Part shown: positions 12,401 to 58,044 of the stretch, in pieces | Numbering within the stretch: position 1 is the stretch's first letter | Layout of the letters: each line of letters opens with the position of its first letter | The notes under the pieces: model-generated | Told to the model about the DNA's origin: nothing | What the model saw: only the letters and a program-made list of their open reading frames with translations | Database searches by the model: none | Position numbers and translations under genes: made by a program | IMG/VR virus record: IMGVR_UViG_3300036985_005960 | Span: 1-64,000 of that record | Reading direction: 5' to 3' (one strand) | Length of the DNA: 64,000 nt | DNA from: a virus

Positions 12401-15400
12401 ATGTATATTGGAGGTGTTAGTTACAGAATAACAGAGGAAATACCTTCTAACACTAAAAAAGGTGACACAATAGTTAAAGGGCAAACTGTTAGATACGGCC
12501 AACAAAATATTCCAGTAGATGTAGAATACTTAGGCAATGTTTCTTCCGATGAAATATTGAATACTTATTTTAGCGGAATGTCATATGAAGATAAGAGACT
12601 TGTTGAAAGAAATAAAAAGAATGGTAAAGATCAATCTTACCATGTGGTACAGGTAAAATTACTTGAACGACCTAAAATAATCTCTTCATCATCTTTCTTA
12701 AAAGTTATTACAGATAGCAAAGAAGCTAATGCAGTATTAGAAAAAGGCGCAACTTATTTCATGAGTAAGCCAGAATTAACCAAACTTAACAGAGGTAATA
12801 ACATTATTTCTTTAGGAATTGGTAGAAATAGTCAATCTTTTATATTGTCAAAGATAAATGATAGTCTTTATACTCTAGACGAATATGTTAAATATACTGG
12901 TTCTTTATCAACTGCAGCATTAAATTTAGGAATTTCAGAATATGAATTGACAAAGAAATTAGCTAATCCGGAAGAAAAAAAGACATTTATTTATAAATTA
13001 TATCCTTACGATAGCAAAAGCAATTTTATTAATTCAAGACAAGAAATTAATATGGTTGGTAAAATTGATAAGCCAGCTTTAGAAGGAGTAAATATATACC
13101 AATTAAAACATACTAAATTAGGATCTGATTTGTCAGAAGTTTTTGGGTATACTTTAAAAGATTTTTCTTCGTCAACATCTTCAAGAAGAGATTTAGAAAA
13201 AGTGAAACAAGCATTAAAAGAACAAGATAGTTTTGATGATAGCATTATTGATAATAATATAGATTTAATTAACTCTTTGATATCTTCTTCGACAAACATA
13301 TTGTTTACTAATATGAAGGATAATACTTCTGTTGGTTTAAAAGGAAATGCAAGATTATTAAACGAATTTTTGGAATTAAATAAGTTATCTATTGATGATG
13401 TTAAAAATAGATTTGATTCTATAAAACAATCTTTAAATCTAAACAATAAAGATTTAGAAATTGCCTTTACATTATTATCAGAACATATAGAAAAAAATAA
13501 GAGTAGAAATCAATCTAAAAATTTCACCTCATATACTAATAATTTAGAATTACAGGCTGCTATATTATCTGGTAAACCTTTATTTGTGTTCAATAAAAAT
13601 AGAGATCAATGGCAAGAATATAATTATAAAAGTAATATGTTCGAAGATTGCAATCTACCATTATTTGTTGGCAATGAAGTTACTATGTCAGGGGTGGAAA
13701 GACAACTAGAAAGTAATCATGATCTAGAAATACTTACTTCTCTTTTGACACATAATAATAAATTCAGAGAATTAAGCGATGGTACTCTTGGTAAATTTAG
13801 TGTTCATGGAGAGTTATCTCTTTCTGGTGTTCCAATAAATGAGGAAATTAATTCTTCTATTAATAGCTACAACTCTAAATCAGATAGTACAGAAGATTTT
13901 TACACTTCAAAGAGTGATGAAATGTTCTTATTTAAAAATGAAAAGAATAATCCTTTTATATCGTCATCTGTTTCAGGAGATTTAATTAGAAAAGTAATTA
14001 CTCTTGATGGTCAAGAATTTCCATTAGAAGATTTCAGAGAACAAGAGAATGTTGTATTAACAAAATATGCTGATGGAGCTGTAAAAATAATTCTTACAAC
14101 AAGTTACGGAGAAGTTACTTATGTAAGTATGTCACCGGAATTAATAGCAGAATACTCTAACTTTACTGGAGAGGAACAATATGATAATTTCAAATTCAAA
14201 ATAGGAGATAAATATTTTATTTTCAATAATATATTAAAAATAAAGGATGTCAGATCATTTGAATTAAGAGATCAATTAAAGACTGAAAAAGAACAATTAA
14301 AAAAATTAGGCTTAATAGCTGCGGATCATTTTAATAATGTTATCACGCCTTTGTACAAAAGCTTAAGATTTCCAAAGAATGCAGATCCTTCTAAATCATT
14401 TAGATTCAAAGGTATAGATTCATATAATGGCTTTATTACTTGGATTAGTTCTGATAATGATTTTGATTTTTCAGAAGAAGAAAAGGTTCTTGTAGAAAAA
14501 TTAATAGAAGAGAACAAGAAATACAAAAATATGGTGCAGTCAACAAGAGATTTTGTTGAGGCATTACGTGCCAAATTTTCTAGTTCTTTGGATGCAAAAG
14601 CATCAAACATATCTTTTACAAATCCTTCAACAGAAGTTTTAGTATTCTTAACAGATGGTTTTAATTTTGGACAAAACACTTTAATTGAAAAATTACAAAG
14701 AGATAAAGGGTTATCTTTAGCATTATCTAATTTTGATACTCAATTAGCATACGATAAAACTAATAGCTTATTCTATTTAAAATTATTTACAGAAAATAAA
14801 ATAGCTGATAATGGTGCATTAATAAAATCTATTGGAAAATTATTATATACTGCACAAGAAGATCTTGATAAAAATAAAGATTTAGCTAAGACTTTTATTT
14901 TAGATTTACCAGTAAATGGTTTAGAAGAAAAAGTATTTGGGGATATGACAGGATATGATGCTGGAAGAGCTATCTCTAGAGCTTTATCACTTTTGAAATC
15001 AAGAAATACATGGCCTAGCAATTTAGTTTTATCAAGTAGATTAGCAGAATTTGTAAATTCTACAGACGGTTTCATAAATCTTGCAACAATAAATAGAACT
15101 AAACCTTTCGAAGTTGTACACTTATCAAGTGAGTCTAATAACATTTACAATTTTAGAGGAGCTGACTTCATGCAAAGAAATATGACCTCTGGGTCTGCTT
15201 CTACTATAGCTTCAACATGGGCAAATTGGCTAGGTACCGAAAGTAAAAATCTTTATGCTGCTAGTGAAATTGGTAGTATAGTACAATCTAGATTTAATGG
15301 CAATGAAGAAAAAGCATTTAAATCTTTATTGACACTATGGGCTCAACAAAATCCTAAAGCATTCAACAGAATTGCTTTTGATATTGGAAATAAATCTATT

Positions 15401-18208
15401 TTAGATTATTACGGAAAAGGAAATAAATTTTCTGTTGCAAGTGCTTTGGCATCAGTGTTAAATGATAAATTTGTTGATAACAAATGGATAGAACTTCCTG
15501 CCAATATATTAGATAGAGATATCGATATGAATCAATCTATAATAGGACTAAAACCAGGAGAAGTTAAATTTAACGGAGAAGGTAAAGCCTTAATTGTTGA
15601 TAATCAAGGAGTACAATTTATTATGGAAATGATATATGAAAATCATGCTCCTATAAATAATTCTACAAGTTTATCTTTAATTAATGATTTAGGTTTAGAC
15701 TTTGATAATCTACCGGAATTTACATCTAGTTCATTTAATATTGCTAAGATTGTGAAAGTTGTAAATAAGAAATCTACTTATGAATTTGCTCCTTCTCAAA
15801 TGTTAGAATTAATTGATAAAGCTAATAAAGTAGAATTATCAGAAGAGCATAGAGAGTTATTTAAAAATGCAACACATATAATACCTATTGATATATTATC
15901 TAATATTACTACTCCTTCTTCAGAAAGAATTGTAAGTAATAACTATATAACAAATATCTTATCTAGTATAGATGATAATATTCATACTAATTATACTAAT
16001 ACTTCTGAGATAGTATTAATAGGAACTAAATTATCAGATAAGGTTTATAATACAGATTCTGTACAATATGCTTTTGATAATCATAAATTTTTGATTGATA
16101 AAGCTATTGCTGCTGGGGCTTCATTTATTATTGGATCCGAAACTGGTATAGAAGCACAAGCTGTATCTTATATACTTAGTAGCGGAACTTATAGTAGAGA
16201 AGGTAATAAGCTTGTAAAGAAACCAATTATAAGAGAAAATTCTACTACAAAAGTAATAGTAGAAACTGATTTAGACATAAACAATTTTAATGCTAATAAT
16301 GATATTAACAGAGGCCAAGGCTTTAGTGGATTGTTAGAGGCTAAATTAGGATTGAATAATAAAACAAAGAATAATAAAGTGTTTGAGTTAGAGATTGATA
16401 TGGATAATGAAGTAATACCTATGTCATCTACAATTAATAATTTTGAGTCTATACTTAGATCACATACTACTATTGGAAATGTAGACAATGCTAGCGAAAT
16501 TGAGATAGAAAATATGAACAATTCCTTAATTAGTGAAGAAGAATTGTTTCTTGAATCATTAATAAAATTGAACATATTAAATAAGTATAAAGAACAACAT
16601 TCTTTACTTGATTCTCCAATTGAATCTATTAGTGATTTAGATAATAAATTTGATACTCTTAATAAAAATGATGAGTACATTGAGAAACACAATGAAGTAT
16701 TCAAGATCTTTAATAAGGGTAGATTAAATATTGCTATTAGAAGCCGAGCAATAACGTTAAATTATTTGAAGAATTATTTTCCAGAATTAATTGCTCCTAG
16801 CAAAGATTTAGAGTCTTTGAAAAAATCTAAATTACAATTTACTTATAGTGATACTTATAAAGAATTTTTAAATTCATATAAACTTACAGAAAATAGTTTC
16901 AAAGAAATGTTAAGTTCTTCAACTACTGTAGAAGATTTATATAACATTTTAAGTACTACTGGAGACAATATTATCTTAAACAATGGAATACCAGAAGGAC
17001 AAATTGCTGCAAAGATTATCAGAAATAATTTGCCAAGAATAAAAGCATTGTCTAATTTTGATACTTTATTTGTATTAGATTACTCTGCAATTTACGGAAG
17101 TCCTTTTAGCAATCAAGAAGATTTCACTAAAAAGAATAATAAATTAAAAATAACTAGTGGTAATGAAGCTGAAATAAAATTAGCTTCTGCACCTAGATTT
17201 ACACAAATGTTTAAATATTTAAAAGAATACGGATTAATTACTCCGGATATTTTGAATGATAAAAAATTAACTGTAGAACATAACAGACACAAAGTATCTT
17301 TAGATTTGTCTGAAGGTTCTCCAGAAGTTTCAATTAATAACGCAATTACAGAGATAAAAACTCTTATCTATGAATCCGTGAAGTCTCTTTATAATGAAAC
17401 AATTACTAAGACTAACTTTACTAAAGCTGAAACACAAGGTGATGTTGTAGAATCATTCCATCTTAAACAAGATTTCTTAGCAAGTAAACATATTGCTAGA
17501 AATAGATCTTTGTGGGGTAATCCTTGGATTTATATGTTACAAAACAATAGATCAACTACTGAAGTACAGTTAGACGAAAAAGGAACTTTCTCTTTAGGGA
17601 AATATTCAGCTAAAACATCTGATGAATTATTTACTGTAACAACTCCAGGTAAACTAAATCAAGTAAGATTTATGCCAATTGCTCTTGAAGAAGCTGGTAT
17701 ATTCTTTTTAGCCCATAAATATGGATCCAATAACGCGGTTATAGTTGAATACTTAGGAAAACCACATGGAATAGTTGATATAAATGATTTCTTTGATAAA
17801 GAAAATATTTTCAAAGAAGTTGCTAGAATTAACATTACTAAATCTTTAGATAATATAGTGCCTTTAAACAAAGCTGCATCTTACGGTTCTAAAGAAGGAA
17901 ATATATTTGCTTTCTTGTATACAGGAAATAACGAGGAAAATATTGTTGACGGTCCATTTATTATAGAAAAAGATGGAAAAAGAACTTTAGCGGTTAAATA
18001 TTCTACTGTTGATCCGACTAAGATTATTGATAAGTATTTTATCGATGAGAAAGATAAGATGTTGATTAGTGGACAAAAACATATTTGGACTTCATTTAGC
18101 AGTAATACAAATGGAATATTAGAAAATCCTGAAGTAAAACCTAAAAATAATTCAGTATTACCTACTGAAAAAGAAATAGATGAACAACAGAAAAAATGTG
18201 AAGAATAG
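3467..18208 (+). CDS. Giant virion RNA polymerase, crAss-like (double-psi beta-barrel type)
   Basis: This 4,913-residue protein is the likely DNA-dependent RNA polymerase carried in the particle, which in crAss-like phages is injected and transcribes early genes. The diagnostic parts are RIPSQGKQS at residue 1791 and, 38 residues later, GQDHDNDKL, whose Asp1829, Asp1831 and Asp1833 form the DxDxD metal-binding loop of the second double-psi beta-barrel. An upstream segment near residue 1440 (KMSGGQHVVATAEK) fits the first-barrel region. The single-chain polymerase of Cellulophaga phage phi14:2 is roughly 2,200 residues, so this chain is over twice as long; the parts before about 1200 and after about 2300 have no assigned function. 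It uses ATG overlapping the previous stop and ends in TAG. The call is firm for the catalytic region and inferential for the rest. Confidence 0.9.
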   Translation: MSKINKCIAAAYQINSNIDMALRFKASGKLGFNAMDYIADSILNNSPEFIKALIGKNDPENLELYKHYLDTVVTITTAKVARLSSTKFDNKITDAYSKLGIPMDTMRKELSDLIESKLSKIDLGIIDENKSLETLTQSNITGSEKDLTSTDATVEIKNNVDVIRDLGVLSFRPLPLINNSQANYTEIINHYFTSNPQLIEEFEKLFKDTFMNSIFDTNLYSETPYRNVNDAILNSKSIMESLAQGSSLTLENDIANYADSDVSIRNGYYAQIINNHFSNIASDLLPGIDFTKFDFNKENNSSISFSASMSSDSSYDMMNQFIKQLLLNTNKLSVNKQDLSTSMSTGNSRITESNINYALKTTHDLDQSDFDQWCKNFKYEIDILSNSEEKDILSSFYYKYFATEPYMVDNIAKQSLNYIAKNSDKISEEDRQNIHNIVTNTYNHFAGNLNAESNIFINDKITLTQHLHAEAASQLIESFKNGLVLYTGGTQTLKADVLKKISIEQNNENLIIKINKHEIKVSLNKNNGLTYIQVEEPLSDAVNASLMKILLGDNSLINKRPVLKDYIINNKGNDFELTNLIANIAWVLKSKQDPKAIQDIINSQQSNALKPVIFDSNQLDLKDTLFNAIDKGNSNSRSNIVPKLIESSKRISMAIKSKRLNLNRDIVSNIMKSNMMYSTESNIREVEKKAKEGVKTLLGNNLFVKRKFKVVQYYALEGLKIGDTSKTLSQLSEKEQQHLLISSFASSAITSNYRQGLVLLTIPSDKSNITAPLIESLGNNLDFMPVHNVNGFVTLNKPALVSQLIDTKKTFHTDLANQIVSLWKAEISKNMSSNVELLAKLNSVKDINELQNFAKENKIPVDILKSLTSEIHYKTAYSKDGNYAVIGDIFLSNYNTWNDPTKSSDKVKELERDFFNQLIKDGYYKNKKLTIDLPYDINKALSNRFPKNPTSSLLLSYFYASATMTSEVNNLVGASIYQFKDGERDSKSKIEKTAKILFDKKVAQAAIDKKSIDEAAVYEEVYASVRHNELYSNMYMNQIKRNAPLTSGIEKLRLASKKEKGLMFEKVAYSAVVEDNVSFVELLGALSPDLKQESTDAVCFVSWFYHKKMANSIGGVYSTNFEEDAPLKDITLSKDSVTGVLTIQKKASFKLSIEHLKNGSPLLQKAFIKMHNTIKFNNPFNTNGIICSSVYDVWVANGGWGNMQTAFEKTAEFLAENTEYRNQYIEILNFKSAEKTGNSSINSFESLNDLNQPLLYKEINMLNHGNILRAGHDTDTTDKTGNKSDLSTPTQIVTALGLEGATQDLSNEVYKALEHISINELNAFNEDIKDKAVHILQKKIETSDNTLNIGAEKIANIFLLVNKHKLHIKLSENEESELLGYLTEYSAIEAAKNYIFKDITKKALATRETHGPGTDLINKVNPDWGSLQLKSVLRTALASHLDSLTIKLKMSGGQHVVATAEKFLQVFTTPNGARLTRSSYNKVAPKNTLITKNNRHLYSFTDLVTVDNDPKLYAFGDLTEEILENNIVNGIDLESENLISELSFMKYFRYDENGKRLYFGTAESNTDVIYNQLKNAVTEGDRRNLEHEIQIILNKDHWITESTEFITPMMHLASYNLKTSDDITDIIGDVDVYAPNSEKEIINNSESFFRKRLNEIASNNLNLSLLVKSKNKQGLLLDLFSTRRNGELRIKLATTSGIVDIDKTIKNLKYNLKGVNSIEADTFISEIRESLKSTEQNILKAEGDPKDVSLYNSTLGLLGISAKAKQRLVIDKLAISQSNAFYKVLEFVTCRIPSQGKQSGTVGRSIGFINDTKNTFYTGVVFTKLTGQDHDNDKLNTVVLSVNEFGEIYDYTKYLDENGKISSDKQEEVKRNIITELSEKFKSESVSELSNRINNALASEKNYLINALKNYAYDKMKETFKSSKNAIESQTPISMDSIQSAVSKVGTIYETSKEDIEEDDKGISNLSAANFSPDNIAGVPSLIKILTVGKGVVGIAANNMKIFGAVFNANSQDIEKTYTRFFVNPEMENLPFAQSKEYMDLYKETFDLQNDYDSNNMSHTVKIFVEEKDGSVSVKKSDGIANIKSVNFEKSKDIAVIAVANKFYEENNSLVPDSEAFNDALELEVRKYLDAKNITTQQAWEYISELLSAATDNAKEFILGRIGADMSTSGIISNMLMLGFDLKTSIDLINNPTVQEIFKKSERTRELNYSGRAVGIREGIKEHIRTKAGKYTFDAETLNATNRAKASKNRYNKLLENKKNSVQFLSEGAKPFSALVQNDINSILSKDITVSPSEYATMCKKLTDKYPAYSFIRTSKLVSDNKNLRNLINIVKNSDTTYVLGYKQENDYKSVLAAAALYFNKTVYFLNAKGEVTDTINGSSLPVALGSNYSIINNLNVDLNPATINDSLFDENNGINSFDLMYTMQVESAKQEFEKAENFKALVLNKFLLDGPRQLLQFLDALDESRLLGGVLNINQGIKITDWEESAYLAKVQTSLENGTQSSLSQKIDDLLNNTNIPNNLHKFYNIPFVLSKNPHFLASIKVQLFNHIANNELNNIQNIITSLAQDFDSSTESTEDESLMMLNEYRMEKSYKSIAEIPYNYAIYKMYNRTDLPDDFKAISFKLENNTFSFNLSNAEERFSFLNTLPQIIDELKELHPALKNNLFLQSLRIDSLVDSFTGNSMPIIKTGNLMELEESERAKLKLSFDTLNNDKELEVKSLYNALVHYSIIMNKGGNDKNSFSLLINQLGNIFNEWHNTLSSLTKEEVLSAVSTTGDASILLSPESIMMKSTAQRQNVSFDDIDLTSDFEADLAEQGIFSRKSGNRKNKFLHAPKKTRTTPNIIRSKEYPDLVFMWGKDHNNEEKFMLITPKANPKSVILDFSNNNFGDLNRVGWQLGHTANIDQFRVGQVVYPIIGSNPEAYAVIVDNKWINVLKDDLKSFNPNMVFDGLRIGKRASNDSDTNETEDYKLSGLTKDLNMYIGGVSYRITEEIPSNTKKGDTIVKGQTVRYGQQNIPVDVEYLGNVSSDEILNTYFSGMSYEDKRLVERNKKNGKDQSYHVVQVKLLERPKIISSSSFLKVITDSKEANAVLEKGATYFMSKPELTKLNRGNNIISLGIGRNSQSFILSKINDSLYTLDEYVKYTGSLSTAALNLGISEYELTKKLANPEEKKTFIYKLYPYDSKSNFINSRQEINMVGKIDKPALEGVNIYQLKHTKLGSDLSEVFGYTLKDFSSSTSSRRDLEKVKQALKEQDSFDDSIIDNNIDLINSLISSSTNILFTNMKDNTSVGLKGNARLLNEFLELNKLSIDDVKNRFDSIKQSLNLNNKDLEIAFTLLSEHIEKNKSRNQSKNFTSYTNNLELQAAILSGKPLFVFNKNRDQWQEYNYKSNMFEDCNLPLFVGNEVTMSGVERQLESNHDLEILTSLLTHNNKFRELSDGTLGKFSVHGELSLSGVPINEEINSSINSYNSKSDSTEDFYTSKSDEMFLFKNEKNNPFISSSVSGDLIRKVITLDGQEFPLEDFREQENVVLTKYADGAVKIILTTSYGEVTYVSMSPELIAEYSNFTGEEQYDNFKFKIGDKYFIFNNILKIKDVRSFELRDQLKTEKEQLKKLGLIAADHFNNVITPLYKSLRFPKNADPSKSFRFKGIDSYNGFITWISSDNDFDFSEEEKVLVEKLIEENKKYKNMVQSTRDFVEALRAKFSSSLDAKASNISFTNPSTEVLVFLTDGFNFGQNTLIEKLQRDKGLSLALSNFDTQLAYDKTNSLFYLKLFTENKIADNGALIKSIGKLLYTAQEDLDKNKDLAKTFILDLPVNGLEEKVFGDMTGYDAGRAISRALSLLKSRNTWPSNLVLSSRLAEFVNSTDGFINLATINRTKPFEVVHLSSESNNIYNFRGADFMQRNMTSGSASTIASTWANWLGTESKNLYAASEIGSIVQSRFNGNEEKAFKSLLTLWAQQNPKAFNRIAFDIGNKSILDYYGKGNKFSVASALASVLNDKFVDNKWIELPANILDRDIDMNQSIIGLKPGEVKFNGEGKALIVDNQGVQFIMEMIYENHAPINNSTSLSLINDLGLDFDNLPEFTSSSFNIAKIVKVVNKKSTYEFAPSQMLELIDKANKVELSEEHRELFKNATHIIPIDILSNITTPSSERIVSNNYITNILSSIDDNIHTNYTNTSEIVLIGTKLSDKVYNTDSVQYAFDNHKFLIDKAIAAGASFIIGSETGIEAQAVSYILSSGTYSREGNKLVKKPIIRENSTTKVIVETDLDINNFNANNDINRGQGFSGLLEAKLGLNNKTKNNKVFELEIDMDNEVIPMSSTINNFESILRSHTTIGNVDNASEIEIENMNNSLISEEELFLESLIKLNILNKYKEQHSLLDSPIESISDLDNKFDTLNKNDEYIEKHNEVFKIFNKGRLNIAIRSRAITLNYLKNYFPELIAPSKDLESLKKSKLQFTYSDTYKEFLNSYKLTENSFKEMLSSSTTVEDLYNILSTTGDNIILNNGIPEGQIAAKIIRNNLPRIKALSNFDTLFVLDYSAIYGSPFSNQEDFTKKNNKLKITSGNEAEIKLASAPRFTQMFKYLKEYGLITPDILNDKKLTVEHNRHKVSLDLSEGSPEVSINNAITEIKTLIYESVKSLYNETITKTNFTKAETQGDVVESFHLKQDFLASKHIARNRSLWGNPWIYMLQNNRSTTEVQLDEKGTFSLGKYSAKTSDELFTVTTPGKLNQVRFMPIALEEAGIFFLAHKYGSNNAVIVEYLGKPHGIVDINDFFDKENIFKEVARINITKSLDNIVPLNKAASYGSKEGNIFAFLYTGNNEENIVDGPFIIEKDGKRTLAVKYSTVDPTKIIDKYFIDEKDKMLISGQKHIWTSFSSNTNGILENPEVKPKNNSVLPTEKEIDEQQKKCEE

Positions 18209-19689: not shown

Positions 19690-22600
19690 ATGAAGACAGG
19701 TTGTGAAACAGTTTATTTAGATGAAAAAAATAATAGAGCTAGTGTATATTATAATAACTTACATTTAGGTCATAATATAGCTTACTCTCAGTATCTTACT
19801 TATATGAAGGGTAAGGCAAACACAATTGTACAAAATAAAACTGTCAGTTTAGATACAATTTATCATCAGCCTAAAAATGAAAAATTAGAGGGTGTTCGAA
19901 AGATGATAAATGATTCACAAACAGATGTGATGTCAGACGGAAAAATACATACAATAGCTGAAGATATAGTGTACAGAATGAAAGCAAAGGAATTGATTAT
20001 GTCTTCTCCTGCTTCTTACGATTATACAACTTCTCAGGCAAATAGTATTATAATTGATGATATAAAAATACAAATTAATGCTAAGGCTATTGATGATGCA
20101 AAGAAATTTTATTTATCAGAACCAGAGGCTTTAAAAGCTTCAATAGATACTGTTAAATATAACTGGTCTTTTCATACTGATGCTGGTATTAATATTGACA
20201 AATATGTAACTTCATTTCTTGAATCTTATAACAAAGCATTATTACAATCTGCAGAAGAACCTTCATTAAAGCACTTATTAGATGAATTAGATTTAAGTAA
20301 AATCGCAACTGATAAAGCTAAAGAAACAATGCGAGAAAATGTATTAACAGTTTTTAAAGCATTAAAGAGTTTTGTAGATTCTCGTGGCCTAAAAAACTAT
20401 GAGTTTATTCCACAATTTAGAATTAGCAATGAACAATTGCAAATGCAGGGTATAATGGATTTAGTTATACATGATAGAGATAATAATAGAGCTATTGTTA
20501 TAGATTATAAATTCAAAGAAAAAGGTAAGGAATTTTTGTTTAATAGTAATGCTCTTGGTAAAATGACAGGGCCTTTCAAAACATTATTTAACAATAAGAA
20601 AACTCAAGCTGAATTACAATTAAGTGGGTATAAATTATTATTAGAGAAAGCTGGACTACCAACAAATAATATTGATATATATGTATTACCTCTAATAGGT
20701 AAACCTATTAAAGAGAATGGTAAAATAACTGGATATGAAAGTATAGATCCGCCTAAATTTGAGCCATTAACATATCAAAGATCCTTAATAGGAAAATATC
20801 TAAAAGCTAAAAGAAAGATTGATATTGACGAAACTATAGTAGAAGAGAATGGAAAGCATAATTCTACAAAGGAATTATTATTAGATTTAACAAATGGTAA
20901 GATACAGCCAATAACTTACGATATGGATCATGATATTGATTATATCTTAAGAAATGGTGTTATAGTAGATGCAACAACCGGTAAGGAATATTTTAGAAAT
21001 ACATTTACTGAGAAAAAAGAATTTTTTACAAGTGATGATATTGATGATAGAAAAGTACAATTAAAAGAATATTTAAAAAATAAAGCGGAAGATAAAGATA
21101 AATTAGCTAATAATTTGATAAGCTTCTTTTACGAAAAAGAATGGCCGGGGGATGCTAATAATAAATTTACTAAGGCTAAGACTTTGCAGGCTAAACAAAT
21201 ATTAGAAGGTTTAGATTCAAAGGATTTTACTTTACAACAAATAAAAAACCTTTATGGATTTGAAAATTATGATCCTAATATATTGGTTGCTATTAATAGC
21301 AAAACAGGTGAAGCCCGTTTAATTAATGCTTCAAATGAAATAAATAAAGTTATTAGATTTGGAGACAAAAGAACTTCTATATTTGGTAAATATATGGAGG
21401 ATAATACTATAGCTTCTATATATAAATTAACAGGGCTAGAATCTAATTCAAATAATTTTAAATTAATAGAATTAGCAATAACTGCATTAAAATTAAAACA
21501 AAGAAATTATATTAGTACAGTAGAGTCATTATTTGTTGGTACAATAAATGGTAATGCTAACCAAAACGTTCCTTCAGTATCTAGTATGTCAGATATAATT
21601 CCGCAATTAAAAATCATAAATGATATATCAGGAGATAATCTTAATAGCGAATTTAAAGAAATATTATCTGATTCTTCTTTAGATTCAGGTAGTAATAAAA
21701 TTGATTGTCTTAAAGAATTTATAAAACAAATTTCTATATCTTCTTCATACATACCTTTAAAGTCTTCTGATTTTAAGGATAAGATAAAAGCATCATACGA
21801 TTTATATTTAAATGAGGAAATAAATAAACATGAGTTTTTGGCAAGATTAAATGAAGCACAAAAAATAATGTATGCTTCATTAAAGCCAACAATTGTTGCT
21901 AATAATCCTCTATTACTTGCAAAGAACAAGGAATATAGCTTATTATGTGATGCTATCTTAAGTGTTGCTGAATTCTCTATTGATCCAGGTGCTCTTACTA
22001 GAAAGAGACAGATGAAAGATTCTTTTAATTTATATGGAAATCATGACAATCCAGTTATGCAACAAGTATACGTTATGGATCAAACGGCTCAACAAGAAGT
22101 TACAAGAAGATTCGAACATTTTTATGCAGAACATAACAAGTTAGTAAAAGCTTTAAAAGAAGATTATAATAAGAGAAATCCTAATAAGTCAACTAGTATT
22201 ACATCTGTTGATCAACACGAAATATTTGCTGATTTATATGTTCAAAATCCAAATGTAGAAGCTAAAGATTTTAACAACGCGTATAAATTAAAATCTTCTA
22301 CTGATCCAACTTTAACAAAAGCACAAAAAGATTATATAAATTTCTTTAATGAAAAAATAAAATCCGGATTTGCATTATCACTTTCTTCAGAACAAATAGA
22401 GAAATTTGACGAAAACTGGGAGCTTGGTACAGTGCCAATTATATCGGCAAGCTCAGAAAATAGAATGAGTAGAGCTGTTAATGCTGGTGAGAAGTTTAAA
22501 GTCTGGGGTAACACTTTAAAATATCAAGGTGTAAAACAAGCTAAAGATGTTGTTAATTCTTTATTTTATGAAATAGATAGTAAGTTTGCAACACAACTTA

Positions 22601-24252
22601 GCACAGATAGTGGAGCTCAGGGTTCTAATCATAGAAGATCTAAACTAGGTATTGATAATGAAGGTAAAAAAATAGATTCAGAAAAAACACCATTAATAGA
22701 AACAAATCTTGAACATATACTTCATAGATTTATGTTAGAGAATTTAATGGATGTTGCATATCAATCTACATTTGCAGTTTATAATGCATTACAGGTAAAA
22801 TTATTACTTGAACAAGATGAACATTATAAACCAACAGCAGATCTTTCTGCAGCAGTAGATAGATATATTAAATTAATGATATTCGATGAATATGCAGATG
22901 ACGGAAAATTTGGAGAAGGATTAGATATGGCTAAAAATATAGCTACAAAAGCTGTTATGGGTTTAAGTATAAAACAGTTTTTAATGGAAACTGGACAAAA
23001 TACTTTAGGTTCTATGTCATTATCTATAAATGCTACAATAGCAAAGATGTTTGGTTCTACAGATGCTTTTGTAAAAAATCCAGCAAGCATAGCAACAGCT
23101 GCAGCTTTTACTACTTTTGATAGTACTCGTAATGATGAAAAGGCAAAAATTACTTTAGCAATTACAAAAGAATTTAAGCTATTTGATTCTGATACCGGAT
23201 CCGTAAAAAGTAAAGATTACCAGGCAACAAAAAAAGATGCTATTTTTCAAAGTAAATGGTTAATGTTTTTAAACTCTGTTCCGTATAGAAATGCTATAAC
23301 TCAATCTTTCTTCGTAAAAATGGCAGATGATGGCATTTTAGGAGCATACTCGCAAAAAGATGGACTTGCCATATACACCCCATCAAAAGACACTCGCTTC
23401 TCAGAGATTTTTGAAAAGGATGGCAGTTTAAAAAAATCAGTTTCTAGCGAAAAAGCTTTAGACCAAATGGCATATTATGAATCTTTAAGAAAAGATTTAA
23501 ATAATGAGTATGACGGTATAAAAGAAGATGGATTAATAAATAGACCATATAGTGCAAAAGAAATGGTAGTAATTAAAGATTACTTAATGAAAGCTTATGG
23601 TTCTATGGGTAAGAATGGTAAAATAGAATTACAAGAACACGCAGTTGGAAGAGCATTATTAATGTATAAGAGCTGGTTGCCAGCTAAAATTGGTAACTAC
23701 TGGTCCACCGGTGCATTTAAGGAATCAAAAGGAAGACGCGTAAGAGTAGAAAATCCTGATAATCCAAATGATTTTTATTATGAATTTCAAGCACAATGGG
23801 ATGAAGGAATTTTACAAACTTTAAACCATGTTTATATACAAGTAGTTGCAGCATACAAAGAAGAGAATGGTAATATCTTAAAGGGATTAAGTTCAAAAAG
23901 ATATAACATGCATCAGAAAGCTAATATGAGAAAATTAATTAGCGATCTTTTAGTATTAGCCGCAATGATTTTAGCTATACTAACAGCAAAAAATATGGGG
24001 GTATTCTCATCTAAACAAGGAAAATACTTTTTAAAGATAGCAAATAATTCAGTAGCAGATTTAAATATGTTATCCATTATGAATTCAACTATAACAAATA
24101 GTCCATTTGCTTTATACGGATTTGTTACTAGAACAATGAGTAGTTTAGTATCTGCAGTTCATTATGGTATAAATGAAGATTTTGATGAAGCTATTGCTGA
24201 AGGATCAAAAATTACTGGTGCTACAAATTTTTTATACAATGTTTCTAATTAA
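19690..24252 (+). CDS. 1,520-residue virion-block protein with PD-(D/E)XK nuclease domain
   Basis: Residues about 200-340 form a PD-(D/E)XK nuclease-like domain: Asp257 in QGIMDLVIHD, then Asp272 and Lys274 in VIDYKFK, followed by a helix with QLSGYKLLL as in RecB-like nucleases. The remaining 1,100 residues are unassigned. A hydrophobic segment at about 1416-1438 (LVLAAMILAILTAKNMGVF) could cross a membrane. It lies 3 bases after the 474-residue gene and is the last gene of the block, followed by a strong terminator. Large nuclease-bearing proteins next to the polymerase suggest an ejected protein acting on host or incoming DNA, but this is inference. The nuclease call rests on motif spacing by eye. 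Confidence 0.8.
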   Translation: MKTGCETVYLDEKNNRASVYYNNLHLGHNIAYSQYLTYMKGKANTIVQNKTVSLDTIYHQPKNEKLEGVRKMINDSQTDVMSDGKIHTIAEDIVYRMKAKELIMSSPASYDYTTSQANSIIIDDIKIQINAKAIDDAKKFYLSEPEALKASIDTVKYNWSFHTDAGINIDKYVTSFLESYNKALLQSAEEPSLKHLLDELDLSKIATDKAKETMRENVLTVFKALKSFVDSRGLKNYEFIPQFRISNEQLQMQGIMDLVIHDRDNNRAIVIDYKFKEKGKEFLFNSNALGKMTGPFKTLFNNKKTQAELQLSGYKLLLEKAGLPTNNIDIYVLPLIGKPIKENGKITGYESIDPPKFEPLTYQRSLIGKYLKAKRKIDIDETIVEENGKHNSTKELLLDLTNGKIQPITYDMDHDIDYILRNGVIVDATTGKEYFRNTFTEKKEFFTSDDIDDRKVQLKEYLKNKAEDKDKLANNLISFFYEKEWPGDANNKFTKAKTLQAKQILEGLDSKDFTLQQIKNLYGFENYDPNILVAINSKTGEARLINASNEINKVIRFGDKRTSIFGKYMEDNTIASIYKLTGLESNSNNFKLIELAITALKLKQRNYISTVESLFVGTINGNANQNVPSVSSMSDIIPQLKIINDISGDNLNSEFKEILSDSSLDSGSNKIDCLKEFIKQISISSSYIPLKSSDFKDKIKASYDLYLNEEINKHEFLARLNEAQKIMYASLKPTIVANNPLLLAKNKEYSLLCDAILSVAEFSIDPGALTRKRQMKDSFNLYGNHDNPVMQQVYVMDQTAQQEVTRRFEHFYAEHNKLVKALKEDYNKRNPNKSTSITSVDQHEIFADLYVQNPNVEAKDFNNAYKLKSSTDPTLTKAQKDYINFFNEKIKSGFALSLSSEQIEKFDENWELGTVPIISASSENRMSRAVNAGEKFKVWGNTLKYQGVKQAKDVVNSLFYEIDSKFATQLSTDSGAQGSNHRRSKLGIDNEGKKIDSEKTPLIETNLEHILHRFMLENLMDVAYQSTFAVYNALQVKLLLEQDEHYKPTADLSAAVDRYIKLMIFDEYADDGKFGEGLDMAKNIATKAVMGLSIKQFLMETGQNTLGSMSLSINATIAKMFGSTDAFVKNPASIATAAAFTTFDSTRNDEKAKITLAITKEFKLFDSDTGSVKSKDYQATKKDAIFQSKWLMFLNSVPYRNAITQSFFVKMADDGILGAYSQKDGLAIYTPSKDTRFSEIFEKDGSLKKSVSSEKALDQMAYYESLRKDLNNEYDGIKEDGLINRPYSAKEMVVIKDYLMKAYGSMGKNGKIELQEHAVGRALLMYKSWLPAKIGNYWSTGAFKESKGRRVRVENPDNPNDFYYEFQAQWDEGILQTLNHVYIQVVAAYKEENGNILKGLSSKRYNMHQKANMRKLISDLLVLAAMILAILTAKNMGVFSSKQGKYFLKIANNSVADLNMLSIMNSTITNSPFALYGFVTRTMSSLVSAVHYGINEDFDEAIAEGSKITGATNFLYNVSN

Positions 24253-29269: not shown

Positions 29270-29875
29270 TTATGCGAATATTAATGATGATTTATTTTTA
29301 AATTTGCCATTTAGCCATGTGGCAAGATTCTTTTCGTTATAATTAAAAGCTAAAGCGGCTTCTCTGATAGAATTGAAAAATATGCCAGTATTATTACATA
29401 ATACTATTTTAGATAAATTACAATTTAAACTCATCTTTAATTTATGTTCTTTAGTCGCTTTTCTACCTAAATTATATTTATTACCAATATTAGCTAGAAG
29501 AGCTCTTTCTTTCATTAGTTTAGATATACCTCTTTCTCTAGCAATTTTACTAAGTTTTATTTTTGTTTCCTTAGAAGCTTTCGTGCCTAATGAACTACCA
29601 GCAATTTTATTTGTATTGTAAACAGGTTTTAATAAATCCATCCAATATTGCTCTCTATTAATTAGATTGGCAATATCTTCAACAATTTCTAATATTTCAT
29701 ATATAAAACAATTCTTACCATGTTTGGTATAAGAAGATTGTAAATGTTTACAATGGTGCTTATTGAATTTCAATTCATTTTGATGAGCAAACCACCGTTT
29801 ATTAAAATTTACAGCACTTCCAATATAAAACTTACTATTAATTGTATTAGTGATTTTATAGATACCAGATTTCAT
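29270..29875 (-). CDS. GIY-YIG homing endonuclease with NUMOD modules
   Basis: A 201-residue free-standing homing endonuclease. The N-terminal GIY-YIG nuclease domain is clear: GIYKITNTI, FYIGSA, the Arg in FNKRWFAH, and the Glu in NREQYWMD. It is followed by NUMOD3-like DNA-binding repeats (KASKETKIKLSK, KATKEHKLKMS) and a C-terminal NUMOD1-like helix-turn-helix (FNSIREAALAFNYNEKNLATWL). It follows a terminator and is inserted between unrelated genes, as expected for a selfish element. I saw no intron features around it. Confidence 0.93.
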   Translation of the reverse strand: MKSGIYKITNTINSKFYIGSAVNFNKRWFAHQNELKFNKHHCKHLQSSYTKHGKNCFIYEILEIVEDIANLINREQYWMDLLKPVYNTNKIAGSSLGTKASKETKIKLSKIARERGISKLMKERALLANIGNKYNLGRKATKEHKLKMSLNCNLSKIVLCNNTGIFFNSIREAALAFNYNEKNLATWLNGKFKNKSSLIFA

Positions 29876-31552: not shown

Positions 31553-31771
31553 TTAGCAACGTAATAATGTACTATTTGAGGTATCAGTTAAAGCATGAAT
31601 ATTATTTAATGCTTCTTGATGACCTGCATCCCCCATCGAAGGATCAATTTCATGTTTAAAAACAAGATTCAAGTGTTTTTTAATTGTTTCTGTTTGTTCT
31701 TTGGTTATTGTTTCAGCTTTGCTTACTTCAAGAAACCCTTGTAGCCAAAAGGCAAAATCTCTACTTGTCAT
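31553..31771 (-). CDS. Small phage protein of the FAFWLQGFLE type
   Basis: A 72-residue helical protein with the N-terminal motif SRDFAFWLQGFLE, which I recognise as recurring in many unrelated phage proteomes without a known function. The C-terminal half has HEALxN-like helix content (GHQEALNNIHAL). It overlaps the Cys-rich gene upstream by 11 bases. Similar proteins are often encoded near DNA-metabolism genes; no biochemical role is claimed. Confidence 0.75.
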   Translation of the reverse strand: MTSRDFAFWLQGFLEVSKAETITKEQTETIKKHLNLVFKHEIDPSMGDAGHQEALNNIHALTDTSNSTLLRC

Positions 31772-34215: not shown

Positions 34216-34908
34216 TTACCATTTAAAACACTCACTTGCACCATTGCCAATGAGTTCAACAGGTCGATAATTTATACCTATTTCTTTAAAGAAATCTTTA
34301 AATTCTTGTTCTAATTTATATAATTCTTTTATAGTACCATGTTTAACTTCTAAAATCTTTTTAGATTTTAAATTATTAAAATTTTTTAATCGATACGTTG
34401 GATTTCGTTTAGTGAGACCTATTTTATAAAAGATGCCATCATTATTTTCTAGTTCTAAATAATAAAGATACATTTTAAAATCAGGTTGATGTTTAACTAA
34501 AGAAGATAATTTACCTGATTTAGCATTATCACCACATTTTTTACATCCTAATCCATTTAAATGATGATCAATACTTTGATTAAAATCACCATGAATAGGA
34601 CAAATTATATTAATTTTTTGTTTTCTATGGATATATTTGAACTCAATATATTGATATTTGTTATTCTGTATTTTATTAAATTTATAGATAGTTAGTCTTT
34701 CTGGTTCTATACAAGATTTAATAGTTACATAATTTCCAAATAATAAAGACATAGGTTTACAAGAATATTTAAAACCATCTTTATCAATTAGAGTAATATA
34801 ATTCTGAACTTTTTCAAATTCATCTATATTCACAATGAAATTTTCTATAATTTTAGGATTTCTAATACATAAAGTTTTATAAAAAGATTCAGAATTATAC
34901 TGTTTCAT
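34216..34908 (-). CDS. GIY-YIG family endonuclease with zinc ribbon, next to nrdA
   Basis: The 230-residue protein has a zinc-finger-like middle (IICPIHGDFNQS, then LGCKKCG, with a His pair between) at about residues 110-145. A C-terminal GIY-YIG nuclease of the T5orf172 type follows (YLYYLELENNDGIFYKIGLT, then the Arg and Glu helices). This architecture is typical of free-standing phage homing endonucleases. It lies 11 bases downstream of nrdA, a frequent insertion neighbourhood for such elements. The N-terminal hundred residues are probably a DNA-recognition region. Confidence 0.88.
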   Translation of the reverse strand: MKQYNSESFYKTLCIRNPKIIENFIVNIDEFEKVQNYITLIDKDGFKYSCKPMSLLFGNYVTIKSCIEPERLTIYKFNKIQNNKYQYIEFKYIHRKQKINIICPIHGDFNQSIDHHLNGLGCKKCGDNAKSGKLSSLVKHQPDFKMYLYYLELENNDGIFYKIGLTKRNPTYRLKNFNNLKSKKILEVKHGTIKELYKLEQEFKDFFKEIGINYRPVELIGNGASECFKW

Positions 34909-42317: not shown

Positions 42318-42616
42318 TTTAATATTTTAAATTTTTGATCTGTATTATTTATATCAATAAGTATCATACCATCTCCGGTATTATATCTTAAAGGTATATT
42401 TAATTCTTTTATTTGATTGATATCGAAGTATTCCATTAAATCATTAAATTTAATTTCATCTTTAGTAGTATCTATTGATTTATAATGAGTATCAAAAATA
42501 TCAGAATCTTCTTCAAAATTAGTATCATAAATTAATCCCTTATCATCATTTAAGCAAATGTCAATAGAAGTAATAATATCATATTGTAGATTTTCTTTTT
42601 TATTTTCTTGCATCAT
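42305..42616 (-). CDS. Unknown 103-residue acidic protein
   Basis: A small, very acidic protein (CLNDDKGLIYDTNFEEDSD) with no recognised domain. It overlaps the HNH gene by 4 bases and the deaminase by 13 bases, which supports it as a true member of the operon. Its low pI could suit a DNA mimic, but nothing further supports that. Confidence 0.7.
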   Translation of the reverse strand: MMQENKKENLQYDIITSIDICLNDDKGLIYDTNFEEDSDIFDTHYKSIDTTKDEIKFNDLMEYFDINQIKELNIPLRYNTGDGMILIDINNTDQKFKILKWKK

Positions 42617-42978
42617 TTAATTGGTATTGGTTCTTTGGTATTTTTGTATTTAGAGGTAACTAAACCGAACATTTTATTATAGATAAATTGTATATTTTCA
42701 AAATGAGTAACCCATCTTAAATTACAAGATCTATTATCATCACGTTTGCCATTTATGTGGTGTACCTCATTATACATAAATGGGTTGTCAACAAATACAC
42801 TAGCTACAATACGATGAACATAAAATGCTCTTCTACAACCTGGTCTAGATAATGTAACGCGGCGATAACCTTCTTCGTTTAAACTACCTTTGACAATTTT
42901 GTTTCTTTTAACATTTTTCAATTTACCGTTATGATTAATCATATAATTATCATAGCCAGGTATTGTTTTCCAACTCAT
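42613..42978 (-). CDS. HNH homing endonuclease with NUMOD4 domain
   Basis: A 121-residue homing endonuclease. The N-terminal NUMOD4 DNA-binding motif is visible (WKTIPGYDNYMINHNGKLKN), followed by the HNH domain (FYVHRIVASVF, EVHHINGKRDDNRSCNLRWV). It is free-standing and lies just upstream of the dCMP deaminase operon. I saw no group I core around it, so it is more likely an intronless mobile gene than an intron ORF. Confidence 0.93.
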   Translation of the reverse strand: MSWKTIPGYDNYMINHNGKLKNVKRNKIVKGSLNEEGYRRVTLSRPGCRRAFYVHRIVASVFVDNPFMYNEVHHINGKRDDNRSCNLRWVTHFENIQFIYNKMFGLVTSKYKNTKEPIPIK

Positions 42979-53858: not shown

Positions 53859-54617
53859 TTATATCATAATAATATTATTTGTATCTACTTTTTTAGCGGG
53901 TTTAGTAAATGTATCTAATTCACCGTTTAAAAGCATAGCTTCTGCTGTACCATACCAATAATCATATTCTCTCCAATAATTTTCTAAACTTTTTACAAAG
54001 TATTGATTCTTTTCTTGATTATGTGATTCTTTTATGAACATATATGTACCTAATAAAAATAAGCCTATGTCTTTCGTCTTATAAACCTTCTTAAAGTTTT
54101 TGACAGTCATATCAGTTATTCTTCTTAAATTTACATTTGTCCAGGTACTGAAATGTTTATCCCAATGTTTATTTTTACTAGCATTAGAAGTAGGGAACAT
54201 ATTCATAAACATAAAGAAGAATGGAGCCATAATAGCATTATCACATTTTTCATTATATTGCTTATAATCAGATCCTTTAAACATATCGCCAAAGAAATGA
54301 ATTGATAATCTTTTAACAATATTTCCAGTTTCGAGCGTTAATATAGGTAAAGAAGAATTTATATTTTTAGATTTAATTTTACTTGATTTATCATCAAATA
54401 ACGCTAAACCTTCTTTAGAAATTTTTCCATTTTTTATATAGCCTCTTTGGATTATTGATAAAAAGTCTTCATCTTTTATTTCAATTTGATGAGTTCCGGT
54501 TGCAGCCCAAAATAATATGGCAAGAGCAGCAGTATGATTTAAACCACTATTCTTTGATATAATTTTTGATTGTGCAATAATACTTTTACAGTATTCATTT
54601 ATTTCTATTTCTCCCAT
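53859..54617 (-). CDS. Unknown 252-residue protein
   Basis: No family recognised. The N-terminal half is helical (AALAILFWAATGTHQIEI); the rest is aromatic-rich, with a Trp/Tyr cluster (NYWREYDYWYGTAEAML). It overlaps the 3' exon of the DNA polymerase by 13 bases and could be a replication accessory protein by position. Confidence 0.74.
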   Translation of the reverse strand: MGEIEINEYCKSIIAQSKIISKNSGLNHTAALAILFWAATGTHQIEIKDEDFLSIIQRGYIKNGKISKEGLALFDDKSSKIKSKNINSSLPILTLETGNIVKRLSIHFFGDMFKGSDYKQYNEKCDNAIMAPFFFMFMNMFPTSNASKNKHWDKHFSTWTNVNLRRITDMTVKNFKKVYKTKDIGLFLLGTYMFIKESHNQEKNQYFVKSLENYWREYDYWYGTAEAMLLNGELDTFTKPAKKVDTNNIIMI

Positions 54618-55285
54618 ACTGAACTTAGTTTACCTTCACATTTTTGTAATTTATTATCTAAGACAAATTCTCCTGCTTCTTCCATAATTTTAGATTTAAT
54701 CTTCAACCATTCTTCAGCAAAATCATCAGTTACTTTAGTTAAAATTTCATCATGTATACTAAATAAAAATTTAATTTTGTCTGTTAAATTATTATTTTCG
54801 ATATACTTTTTAATTAAAACTGCAGCGTATTTAGACATATTAGCAGAACTTCCTTGAATAGGCATATTCATTGCTTCTCGAAAGATAGCATTTTCTTCAC
54901 TTCTATTATCAGGGCTTTCAAAGAATCTAATTCTTCCAAAGACATCTTTAGTTCTAATATGCAATTTTGTAACTGCTTTTTCAGCACCATCTGATAAATA
55001 AGAGTGCAATTTAGGAAATGCATTTCTAAATCTTTGTACTAAATCATCACCGGTAATAACATCAGGTAAAAATAATCCTTCTTGACGTTTTGTTTTAACA
55101 AAAGTTTTCTTGGATATTTTATTTGATTTTCCATTATGGTTTTCTAGACAAAACAATTTATACTCTTCCGCAGAATTATTGATTAAATCTTCAATTTCAT
55201 TAGGAAATGCTTCGATAAGCGATTCTGTAGTAGCATGAAGATTCAAACTTTCTGCTAACCCAATAGCAGATTTTCCATACATTAT
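54605..55285 (-). CDS. polA: Family A DNA polymerase, 3' exon (palm/finger C-terminus)
   Basis: The second exon supplies residues 539-764 of the spliced polymerase. It begins with ATA ATG TAT GGA (Ile-Met-Tyr-Gly), which completes motif B RxxxKxxxFGxxYG begun in exon 1, and contains motif C FLFSIHDEIL with catalytic Asp717. The ATG four bases into the exon gives a false free-standing frame of 225 residues; the Ile before it is required for motif spacing, so I place the exon start at 55285. The polymerase replicates phage DNA and has a proofreading domain in exon 1. Confidence 0.9.
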   Translation of the reverse strand: MMYGKSAIGLAESLNLHATTESLIEAFPNEIEDLINNSAEEYKLFCLENHNGKSNKISKKTFVKTKRQEGLFLPDVITGDDLVQRFRNAFPKLHSYLSDGAEKAVTKLHIRTKDVFGRIRFFESPDNRSEENAIFREAMNMPIQGSSANMSKYAAVLIKKYIENNNLTDKIKFLFSIHDEILTKVTDDFAEEWLKIKSKIMEEAGEFVLDNKLQKCEGKLSSVWEK

Positions 55286-56430
55286 CAGTTTTGTTATCGT
55301 ATAGGCTCTTTATCCTATACCTCTGTAGTTTCATTTTGTTATTTCTACAGCTCAGACTATATCATCACCTTATAAAAGGTGTTGGATGTTCGTGGATATA
55401 TTATATTCTAATTATTCTTATATAGGCATATAAGTATATAATCTCTACAATCTAGGGCCTAAATCCTATTAGTATTCATATTATAATTAGTTTCAATATC
55501 TAGTCGTTGAACCCGCATTAACCATTTAGATTAATGATAGGCTGCTGATTGTCCTCTACAGGAGTTTCCAGCAATTTATCCAATTTTATTTCGGCTTAAT
55601 GTTAAAATATTAAACACTTTTAATCTTTTTCTTTCTAAACAAACATTGTAATTATTATATAAAAGATTGTAAAAATTAATTCTTCCTTCACTTAAGATTT
55701 GAACATCATAAATAGGATTTATTGAATTTTTATCACCTTTTTCACGGTAATTACATTTTATACTATTTTCATTGAAATAATTTAATAATTGATCTCTAAA
55801 TAAAGGGCTACTAGTAGTTATTTTTGGTATATTATTAGTTGAACATGAGCCATCACCATCAAAAACACCTCTAATGAAATGCCCAGTGATTTCTCCTAAA
55901 TAATTTAATGTTCTACTCTTTGCAGATGTTAAACCTAGATTATTTAAAAATTCATGTACTTCTTTGTTTCCTGTGCTAAAACCCATAGATTCATTACCAT
56001 TTTTATTTAAGCAAGATACTAATTTAATATCTTTACATAAAAAATCACGAAATAAAATCATATGAAATCTATCATCATTTGCCTGATAACAACTAAAGTA
56101 GTATTTTGAAGCAGAAATATATCCATCTGCTGCTAGAAATCCTAACCAATATTGAGTTTCTGGATTATCTAAATCAATAAACGGATTATGATTCATAATT
56201 CTATTTTGACCACCGCTACCTTTTTTAGTCTTTAAATTAAATTTTTTTAATTTTCTATGCAAAGTTTGTCTACTAATATTTAATCTAGTAGAAATTTCTT
56301 GAGAAGTTAAATTTTCTTCAATTAGATCTTTTATTTTTTGTTTGTATATTTCTTCCATATATAAATATATGAAATTTATTTAACTCTTGTAAGTTAATAG
56401 ACCAAAAATAACATTTTGTAACTTTTGTTA
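55286..56430 (-). other. Group I self-splicing intron in the DNA polymerase gene
   Basis: A 1,145-base intron splits motif B of the polymerase. Its first base follows the T of GGT (exon 1), and its last base is a G before ATA (exon 2), the classic U and G boundary. The catalytic core is visible in order on the - strand: GCTGGAAACTCC (55561-55575 region), GACAATCAGCAGCC (55540-55553), GGTTCAACGACTAGA (around 55501-55512) and ATATAGTCTGAGC (55351-55362). The GACTA/TAGTC pairing gives P7. The ORF fills the 5' part, before the core. The wording of P4-P7 resembles subgroup IA introns; the exact subgroup is not determined. Confidence 0.93.
55576..56358 (-). CDS. Intron-encoded LAGLIDADG homing endonuclease
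   Basis: A 260-residue endonuclease that would cut intronless polymerase genes to spread the intron. It has an N-terminal helix-turn-helix (EISTRLNISRQTLHRKLKKF), then two LAGLIDADG-type motifs: YWLGFLAADGY (residues 70-80) and HFIRGVFDGDG (160-170), spaced as in single-chain enzymes. The second motif's acidic residue is Asp. The stop codon abuts the intron core, so translation may influence RNA folding. The start ATG lies 72 bases into the intron. Confidence 0.92.
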   Translation of the reverse strand: MEEIYKQKIKDLIEENLTSQEISTRLNISRQTLHRKLKKFNLKTKKGSGGQNRIMNHNPFIDLDNPETQYWLGFLAADGYISASKYYFSCYQANDDRFHMILFRDFLCKDIKLVSCLNKNGNESMGFSTGNKEVHEFLNNLGLTSAKSRTLNYLGEITGHFIRGVFDGDGSCSTNNIPKITTSSPLFRDQLLNYFNENSIKCNYREKGDKNSINPIYDVQILSEGRINFYNLLYNNYNVCLERKRLKVFNILTLSRNKIG

Positions 56431-58044
56431 ACCGAAACTCACGGCTTTACTCCAACCGCGGAATTTGTCTCCATCTTTAGTTTTAGGCTTACCTTTAGGG
56501 GAAGGATCTTCACCACAAGCAATCCATTCTTTAGGAAACATCATAGAAGCACAAATACTGTGCATATCCCAACCATTTTTCAATGATTCTAAGATGATAT
56601 CTTCTTCAGATAAAGTTGCAGCAACTACAATCTCTTGACTAGAATAATCTATTCCACATATTTGCCATCCCTTTTCTGGGTAAAAGCATCCTCTATATTC
56701 ACCTTCTTTTGGAAGAAGCTGAAATAATTTCATAGAAGTTCTACCAGTTTGTACAATTTGATTAATATCTGGTATTCTCAGCATACCATCCTCATCAACT
56801 GCATCAAGAAAATTTTGACCATAAGACGAATAAAGTTTTGAAGCCTTCATATATCTTTGATAAATACTAACAAGAGGGTGTTTCAATTTCTTAATAGTAT
56901 CTTTGTTTACTGCTTCTAATGTTGGATCAATTAATTTAAATAATTGTAAAGTTTGAATAGGAGAATTAAGATTCAATAATATTGTACCTTTCGCAATGAA
57001 TAATCCAGAATCGGCAAGAAATTGCTGATGATTTTGAATAAAGTATAATTCTAATTTCTCAAAATTACGTGCCAAAAACAATTCTATAGGTTGAAGATCA
57101 ACATCAGTTTTAGTATCAATCAACAGATTATAAAACTTCTTATAAGCTGGTAATGCAGTACATTCAGAAGGTAATGAAGGATATACTAATCTCATTAAAT
57201 CTTTCTTCATTTTACCGGAACCCCAGGAAAACAAATAAGTATCTTGAGCTTGTATAAATTCAAGTTCTTCACATTCTGCTCTTAAATCGGCTTTTATAAA
57301 GTCAAACAATTCGATTTGAATTTCCTTTAATTCTTTTTCTTTGACAAGCATTATACTTCTCCACTTTTCTTGATTCAAATAAAGATTATTTAATAATCCA
57401 TCAGAGAATGGTCTAATAACAGCACATTCAAGTCTAACAGTATTTTCTAATCCCCATTTATCAATATCAACCTGTAGAGCGTCATGAAGCTTACCTAATA
57501 ATGCAACATCTGTGGCAGCATAAAGTATTTGTTCAATAGACATTGGTTCAGTTGTAAAGGTAGTTTGAGAAGCTTTATCAATATCAATCCTTAAGTAGCG
57601 TTGTAAACATCCAGCTAAACCATGAAAACCTTTAGGCATTAGTAATCCAGTATAGAGAATCTTACTCATCAAGAATGTGTCTCTAATTTTATCAATATCA
57701 ATACCAAAAGCTTTTTGAATAATTGAATATTCAAACATAGCATTATGTATAATTTTTTGTATATTATTATTAGATAAACATTTCTTCAAAGAATTCAATT
57801 TAATACTTGATAATCCAATTATATCAAAAATCCATTGATCTTTACCTTCATAGTCTCCTATTTGAACAACATATAATTCTCTATGAATTAATTTATCAAC
57901 AACATTAGTCTCTGTATCCAATTGAATCCTATTATGTAAACTAATCCAATTTTCGAATTCTTTTGCGCTAGATAATTGAATGTCTTCAGATGCAAGTTGT
58001 ATAGGATCATAATGATTTTCTCGACTCGTTATTAGATATATCAT
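56431..58044 (-). CDS. polA: Family A DNA polymerase, 5' exon (exonuclease and palm)
   Basis: Residues 1-538 of the spliced 764-residue polymerase. About residues 30-190 form a DEDDy 3'-5' exonuclease (Asp43 and Glu45 in LDTET, HNAMFEY, YAATDVALL). The polymerase part begins later and includes motif A GIDYSSQE (Asp466). The exon ends with RGWSKAVSFG, the first half of motif B (Arg529, Lys533). Without splicing, translation stops at the first intron codon (TAA). No 5'-3' exonuclease domain is present, as expected for phage PolA. The start overlaps the upstream gene by 38 bases. Confidence 0.93.

Follow-up and report, generated by a model that had tools for sequence, protein, structure and literature searches.

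The DNA considered here is a 64,000-nt stretch of phage sequence (the window), corresponding to positions 1 to 64,000 of the IMG/VR record IMGVR_UViG_3300036985_005960. The family A DNA polymerase gene (PolA) located on its minus strand is almost certainly split inside motif B by a mobile, self-splicing group I intron carrying a LAGLIDADG endonuclease gene. An earlier note, made from the sequence alone, had proposed this arrangement, which is confirmed by the Rfam group I model RF00028, covariation, the P1 and P10 pairings, Pfam matches and restoration of the reading frame. The anatomy of the locus is the following:

56431 to 58044, minus strand: PolA exon 1, 538 codons, encoding the 3'-5' exonuclease domain and the N-terminal portion of the polymerase domain, as far as F-G in motif B.
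55286 to 56430, minus strand: group I intron, 1145 nt, starting with UAA (an in-frame stop) and closing with a terminal G.
55576 to 56358, minus strand: LAGLIDADG endonuclease open reading frame (ORF), 260 aa, with an N-terminal helix-turn-helix, in the P1 loop.
54605 to 55285, minus strand: PolA exon 2, 226 codons plus stop, starting IMYGKSAIG and encoding the C-terminal polymerase half.

The host gene is a family A DNA polymerase: in Pfam, exon 1 matches PF01612 (E 7.4e-22) and PF00476 (E 1.2e-15), and exon 2 matches PF00476 (E 2e-21). Exon 1 closes with TTCGGT at 56431 (in fuller form GAGTTTCGGT), T56430 (TAACAAAAG...) and G55286 are the first and last bases of the intron, and exon 2 opens with ATAATGTATGGA at 55285; all strings and coordinates given in the earlier note are indeed present on the minus strand. 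When the exons are joined in frame, a single open frame of 764 codons without any stop is obtained and motif B is regained as RGWSKAVSFGIMYG, that is RGWSKAVSFG/IMYG (the slash marks the junction), as had been claimed. The joined product contains the family A motifs A (DYSSQE), B (RGWSKAVSFGIMYG) and C (HDE), together with the 3'-5' exonuclease domain. Family A polymerases of known structure (PDB) align continuously across the junction, and about 70 homologues from viral contigs, with near-duplicates among them, are uninterrupted at this site, which by motif alignment corresponds to position 763/764 of E. coli Pol I, in phase 0. Unspliced RNA would give a 538-aa product, keeping the exonuclease domain and lacking the YG of motif B and the C-terminal polymerase half. 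Loss of the polymerase in the absence of splicing is likely, because the first intron codon is a stop and motif B and the catalytic C-terminal half are separated; exon 2 carries its own in-frame AUG, and the strict dependence on splicing stated in the earlier note is a reasonable inference.

The earlier note had set the splice sites from the protein alone and did not include a guide sequence; the latter was located here, together with a second element pairing to the 3' exon:

55588 to 55595, minus strand: internal guide sequence GCCGAAAU, forming P1 with the exon 1 end GUUUCGGU, 8 bp (six Watson-Crick and two G.U).
55597 to 55602, minus strand: ACAUUA (DNA ACATTA), forming P10 through six Watson-Crick pairs with nt 2-7 of exon 2, UAAUGU.

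The guide is found 835 nt into the intron, 12 nt 5' of P3, and it is the best-pairing partner of the exon 1 end among all intron positions. In P1 the two G.U pairs flank the six Watson-Crick ones, and one of them is the U.G expected at the 5' splice site; ACAUUA sits one base upstream of the guide, and the intron ends in the terminal G55286, with P10 to the 3' exon. Among shuffled introns, 0.2% have a P1 of at least six Watson-Crick pairs close to P3, and P1 and P10 are equally good at just two of 22,730 other T/N junctions on the same strand of the window. Both of the proposed splice sites gain support from P1 and P10, which also bear on an assembly artefact, namely the joining in the metagenome of an intron from another phage to the polymerase gene: the element is known from one metagenomic record and no near-identical second copy was found, but the guide fits both exons of this very gene, a fit matched at only those two other junctions, and GC content is similar (26% vs 28%), making such an origin highly improbable.

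The ribozyme core shows the following elements:

55578 to 55583, minus strand: 5' strand of P3, UUGGAU, overlapping the end of the endonuclease ORF (covariation).
55569 to 55574, minus strand: 5' strand of P4, UUGCUG, with the 3' strand CAGCAG at 55547-55542 (RF00028, alignment, fold).
55501 to 55505, minus strand: 5' strand of P7, GACUA, with the 3' strand UAGUC at 55359-55355 (invariant in the core alignment).
55382 to 55387, minus strand: 3' strand of P3, AUCCAA (covariation alignment).
55366 to 55381, minus strand: P8 hairpin CACCUU-UUAU-AAGGUG (covariation alignment, fold).
55299 to 55350, minus strand: P9, CUGUAG/CUACAG, and the next hairpin GUAUAGG/CCUAUAC, before the 3' splice site (minimum-energy fold).

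A conserved core with the P3-P8 and P4-P6 domains and P7, including the P, Q, R and S elements, is recognized by RF00028, covariation and folding. A covariance-model search of the intron, which the earlier note had suggested, gives a match to RF00028 covering 55622-55336 (42.9 bits, E 2.8e-9, with the search restricted to 1.3 kb), and the core strings CAATCAGCAGCC, GTTCAACGACTA and ATATAGTCTGAG, already pointed out in that note, occur in this order from about 55551 to 55351, which is more than chance in view of the match and the covariation. The core pattern was found again in at least 119 IMG/VR stretches. For covariation, 42 phage cores were aligned, from stretches collected by common Q and R strings; pairs were counted in P3, P4, P5, P6, P7 and P8, using as controls partners slid by 1-3 columns and shuffling. 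Paired cells amount to 95.5%, vs 23-50% with slid partners, and the covariation score is 0.391, vs 0.137 after shuffling. P3, P5 and P8 are backed by covariation, and in P3, where 98% of cells pair, five of the six pairs show two-sided changes; P4, P6 and P7 do not vary and are therefore neutral in this respect. Invariance of Q and R arises in part by construction, since loci were chosen by those strings, while P3, P5 and P8 were unselected. The minimum-energy fold of the single sequence recovers P4-P9, with a z-score of -3.2, and helices resembling the P9 region, with changed bases, are visible in the relative L147, described below. About 110 nt between P7 and P3 form helices in the fold. Subgroup IA is distinguished by extra P7.1/P7.2 helices between P7 and P3, and the intron probably belongs to this subgroup. 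A group II intron was considered and rejected, a group I core being present.

Some points weigh against the proposed interpretation. The RF00028 score is lower than the Rfam gathering score of 50, and for this reason the intron is absent from the listing of a default Rfam run; it is also not listed in a run on the whole window, performed with a relaxed E-value threshold and stricter filters. The case is computational, and the record, a metagenomic fragment of 65.8 kb, has no close relative that could supply an intronless allele of this phage for comparison. The low Rfam score, the in-frame UAA at the end of exon 1 and the in-frame AUG of exon 2, three bases from the junction, could fit an intron that no longer splices, with the polymerase functioning as two proteins: an N-terminal half of 538 aa, and a C-terminal one, some 225 aa long, translated from the AUG in I-M-Y. 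This is very unlikely: P1, P10 and every core helix are preserved, compensatory changes are seen across relatives, the same-junction introns of two other phages (L056 and L066, see below) retain matching guides, and splitting the fingers helix in two would ill suit a two-subunit enzyme. The default Rfam threshold has a practical consequence, since annotation pipelines applying it miss the intron and would report a truncated polymerase.

The endonuclease gene is intact. In Pfam the protein matches LAGLIDADG_3 (PF14528, E 7e-8) and among PHROG families phrog_4645 (E 3.5e-31). Its structure model (pLDDT 91.8) is matched by Foldseek to I-Tsp061I (E 1.4e-8) and I-DmoI (E 2e-6), and PI-PfuI is also found; as in monomeric enzymes of this family, two LAGLIDADG helices with catalytic acids are placed in a known fold, and these acids, D78 and D169, are invariant in an alignment of 38 homologues. 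An exact-peptide search in IMG/VR gave no match for the endonuclease; its relatives came from alignment instead. The presence of this ORF within the gene could also be explained by the insertion of a free-standing homing endonuclease gene or of an intein, with no ribozyme, but the ORF is flanked by a full group I core and by matching P1 and P10, and an intein is contradicted by the absence of a Hint domain match in Pfam; the stop codon at intron position 1, directly after exon 1, led to its rejection. An insertion lacking a ribozyme is therefore hardly credible. In the intron as read here, the guide is far from the 5' end and the ORF lies between the two P1 strands, and thus the endonuclease gene is contained in the P1 loop.

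The position of this gene within the RNA is unusual. The ORF extends into the 3' strand of P1, its final codons encode the guide and the 5' strand of P3, and its UAA stop (55578-55576) overlaps the last base of this P3 strand and J3/4. Among the relatives compared, a stop in J3/4 is found only in L221 (same contig as L147) and in L078; in the remaining ones the endonuclease ORFs end elsewhere, for instance in the S element.

As for the mechanism, from membership of the group I and LAGLIDADG families the element would be expected to splice itself with a guanosine cofactor, and its endonuclease to cleave intronless alleles and promote homing. In the transcript the exon 1 end GUUUCGGU would pair with the guide GCCGAAAU at 55595-55588, forming P1, and the start of exon 2 with the neighbouring ACAUUA, forming P10; the P3-P9 core would then catalyze two transesterifications, removing 1145 nt and restoring the polymerase frame. 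Cleavage of intronless alleles at motif B by the LAGLIDADG enzyme, followed by repair from an intron-bearing copy, would spread the intron.

The insertion site is not unique, and the same and nearby positions of motif B are occupied by introns in other phages; positions other than that of the window junction (+0) were read from the frame and from the U/...G ends. The closest relative found, on IMGVR_UViG_3300042356_001651 (L147/L221), is likewise a LAGLIDADG intron interrupting PolA motif B; its endonuclease shows 36-38% identity with that of the window over its full length and 45% in the C-terminal part. The two introns have in common a very similar core, an ORF upstream of the core and a stop in J3/4; the relative differs in being inserted 7 nt further downstream, within a Tyr codon (INFMLA T/AC GGT), and in its apparently weaker guide pairing. 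Three IMG/VR loci (L056, L061 and L066) have an HNH intron at the identical junction ...TTCGGT/, between F-G and L/V-A-Y-G, and in L056 and L066 the guide is GCCGAA, as in the window intron. These introns differ in carrying an unrelated endonuclease, whose ORF overlaps the ribozyme core, and in size, being 574 nt and about 535 nt long, with L061 cut by the contig end; RF00028 matches the L056 intron with 53.2 bits. Their approximate ends are 3486-4059 in L056, 5375-5680 in L061 and 5250-5783 in L066; the ORF reads through the core, and the N-terminal part of the HNH protein looks conserved partly through conservation of the RNA core. ORFs overlapping core sequences have been described in general (PMC3984707). 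Two further introns are found 2 nt downstream of the window junction, a 952-nt LAGLIDADG intron in L078 (RF00028, 75.9 bits) and a 301-nt intron without a long ORF in L089. In the cultured phages Silviavirus V1SA19 and Kochikohdavirus KEN16, PolA introns are inserted at the end of motif B, right after YG, 12 nt downstream; the KEN16 intron has an HNH gene, whereas only tiny ORFs are annotated in V1SA19. In L297 and L298 (ON814134 and PP582187), cultured phages of Staphylococcus and Enterococcus, introns split PolA directly after YG of motif B, and its two parts are annotated as separate DNA polymerase genes flanking hypothetical or HNH genes.

These data suggest that two or more unrelated kinds of intron and endonuclease have entered a 12-nt segment of PolA at four positions, making motif B a testable, little described insertion hotspot. 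A broader proposal, possible but rather doubtful, combines a built-in switch on replication with a shift of one lineage inside the same short target, as suggested by the related introns at +0 and +7. Since the guide and the 5' strand of P3 lie within the endonuclease ORF, whose stop immediately precedes P4, ribosomes completing its translation may prevent P1 and P3 from forming and thereby block splicing; if so, endonuclease translation and polymerase production would exclude each other, acting as a switch on phage replication. A similar conflict between translation and splicing exists in T4 introns.

Regarding the rest of the record, its PolA is 26-28% identical to that of crAss-like phages. 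In one crAss-like PolA (L057, about 6000-6750) an insertion with an endonuclease-like ORF follows YPCQG, an additional insertion position in this gene; in L004 and L005 (cr50_1 and cr1_1) a dUTPase gene is split by an intron about 82% identical to the window intron over some 80 nt, and the annotation shows an HNH gene flanked by two dUTPase genes. The window has three further endonuclease-like ORFs on the minus strand, at 29270-29875 (homing endonuclease phrog_314), 34216-34908 (endonuclease phrog_681) and 42613-42978 (HNH phrog_959); the whole-window search, which missed the PolA intron too, listed no group I core in their vicinity. The only other Rfam candidate is RF03077, RT-2 RNA, at 31608-31740 on the minus strand (23.6 bits, gathering score 40), probably a chance match. 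Very large ORFs are found on the plus strand at 405-3470, 3467-18208 and 19690-24252 (1021, 4913 and 1520 aa); a PHROG scan covering the 1021-aa and 1520-aa ORFs gave no match for these two.

A literature search for motif B introns found none, most subscription journals lying outside its coverage. Many group I introns with endonuclease genes are described in crAss-like phages of Bacteroidetes in the accessible part of PMC7886860, where the PolA motif B site is unmentioned. Many PolA introns are known in Bastillevirinae, with one LAGLIDADG case, in phiNIT1 (PMC11878797); the latter was considered as an earlier LAGLIDADG case in motif B and rejected, its insertion being located after SSRDPK, at the SPO1, 674-type site, with motif B intact. 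The DNA polymerase introns of SPO1, SP82, Bastille, Pf-WMP3, phiL7, phiI and W31 are found at E. coli sites 674, 676 or 881 and mostly carry HNH genes (PMC3428280). Like the window intron, they belong to group I, carry endonuclease genes and interrupt family A polymerase genes of phages, and several of them have been shown to splice; the intron described here is an element of this known kind, at a polymerase position outside the sites named in the accessible literature.
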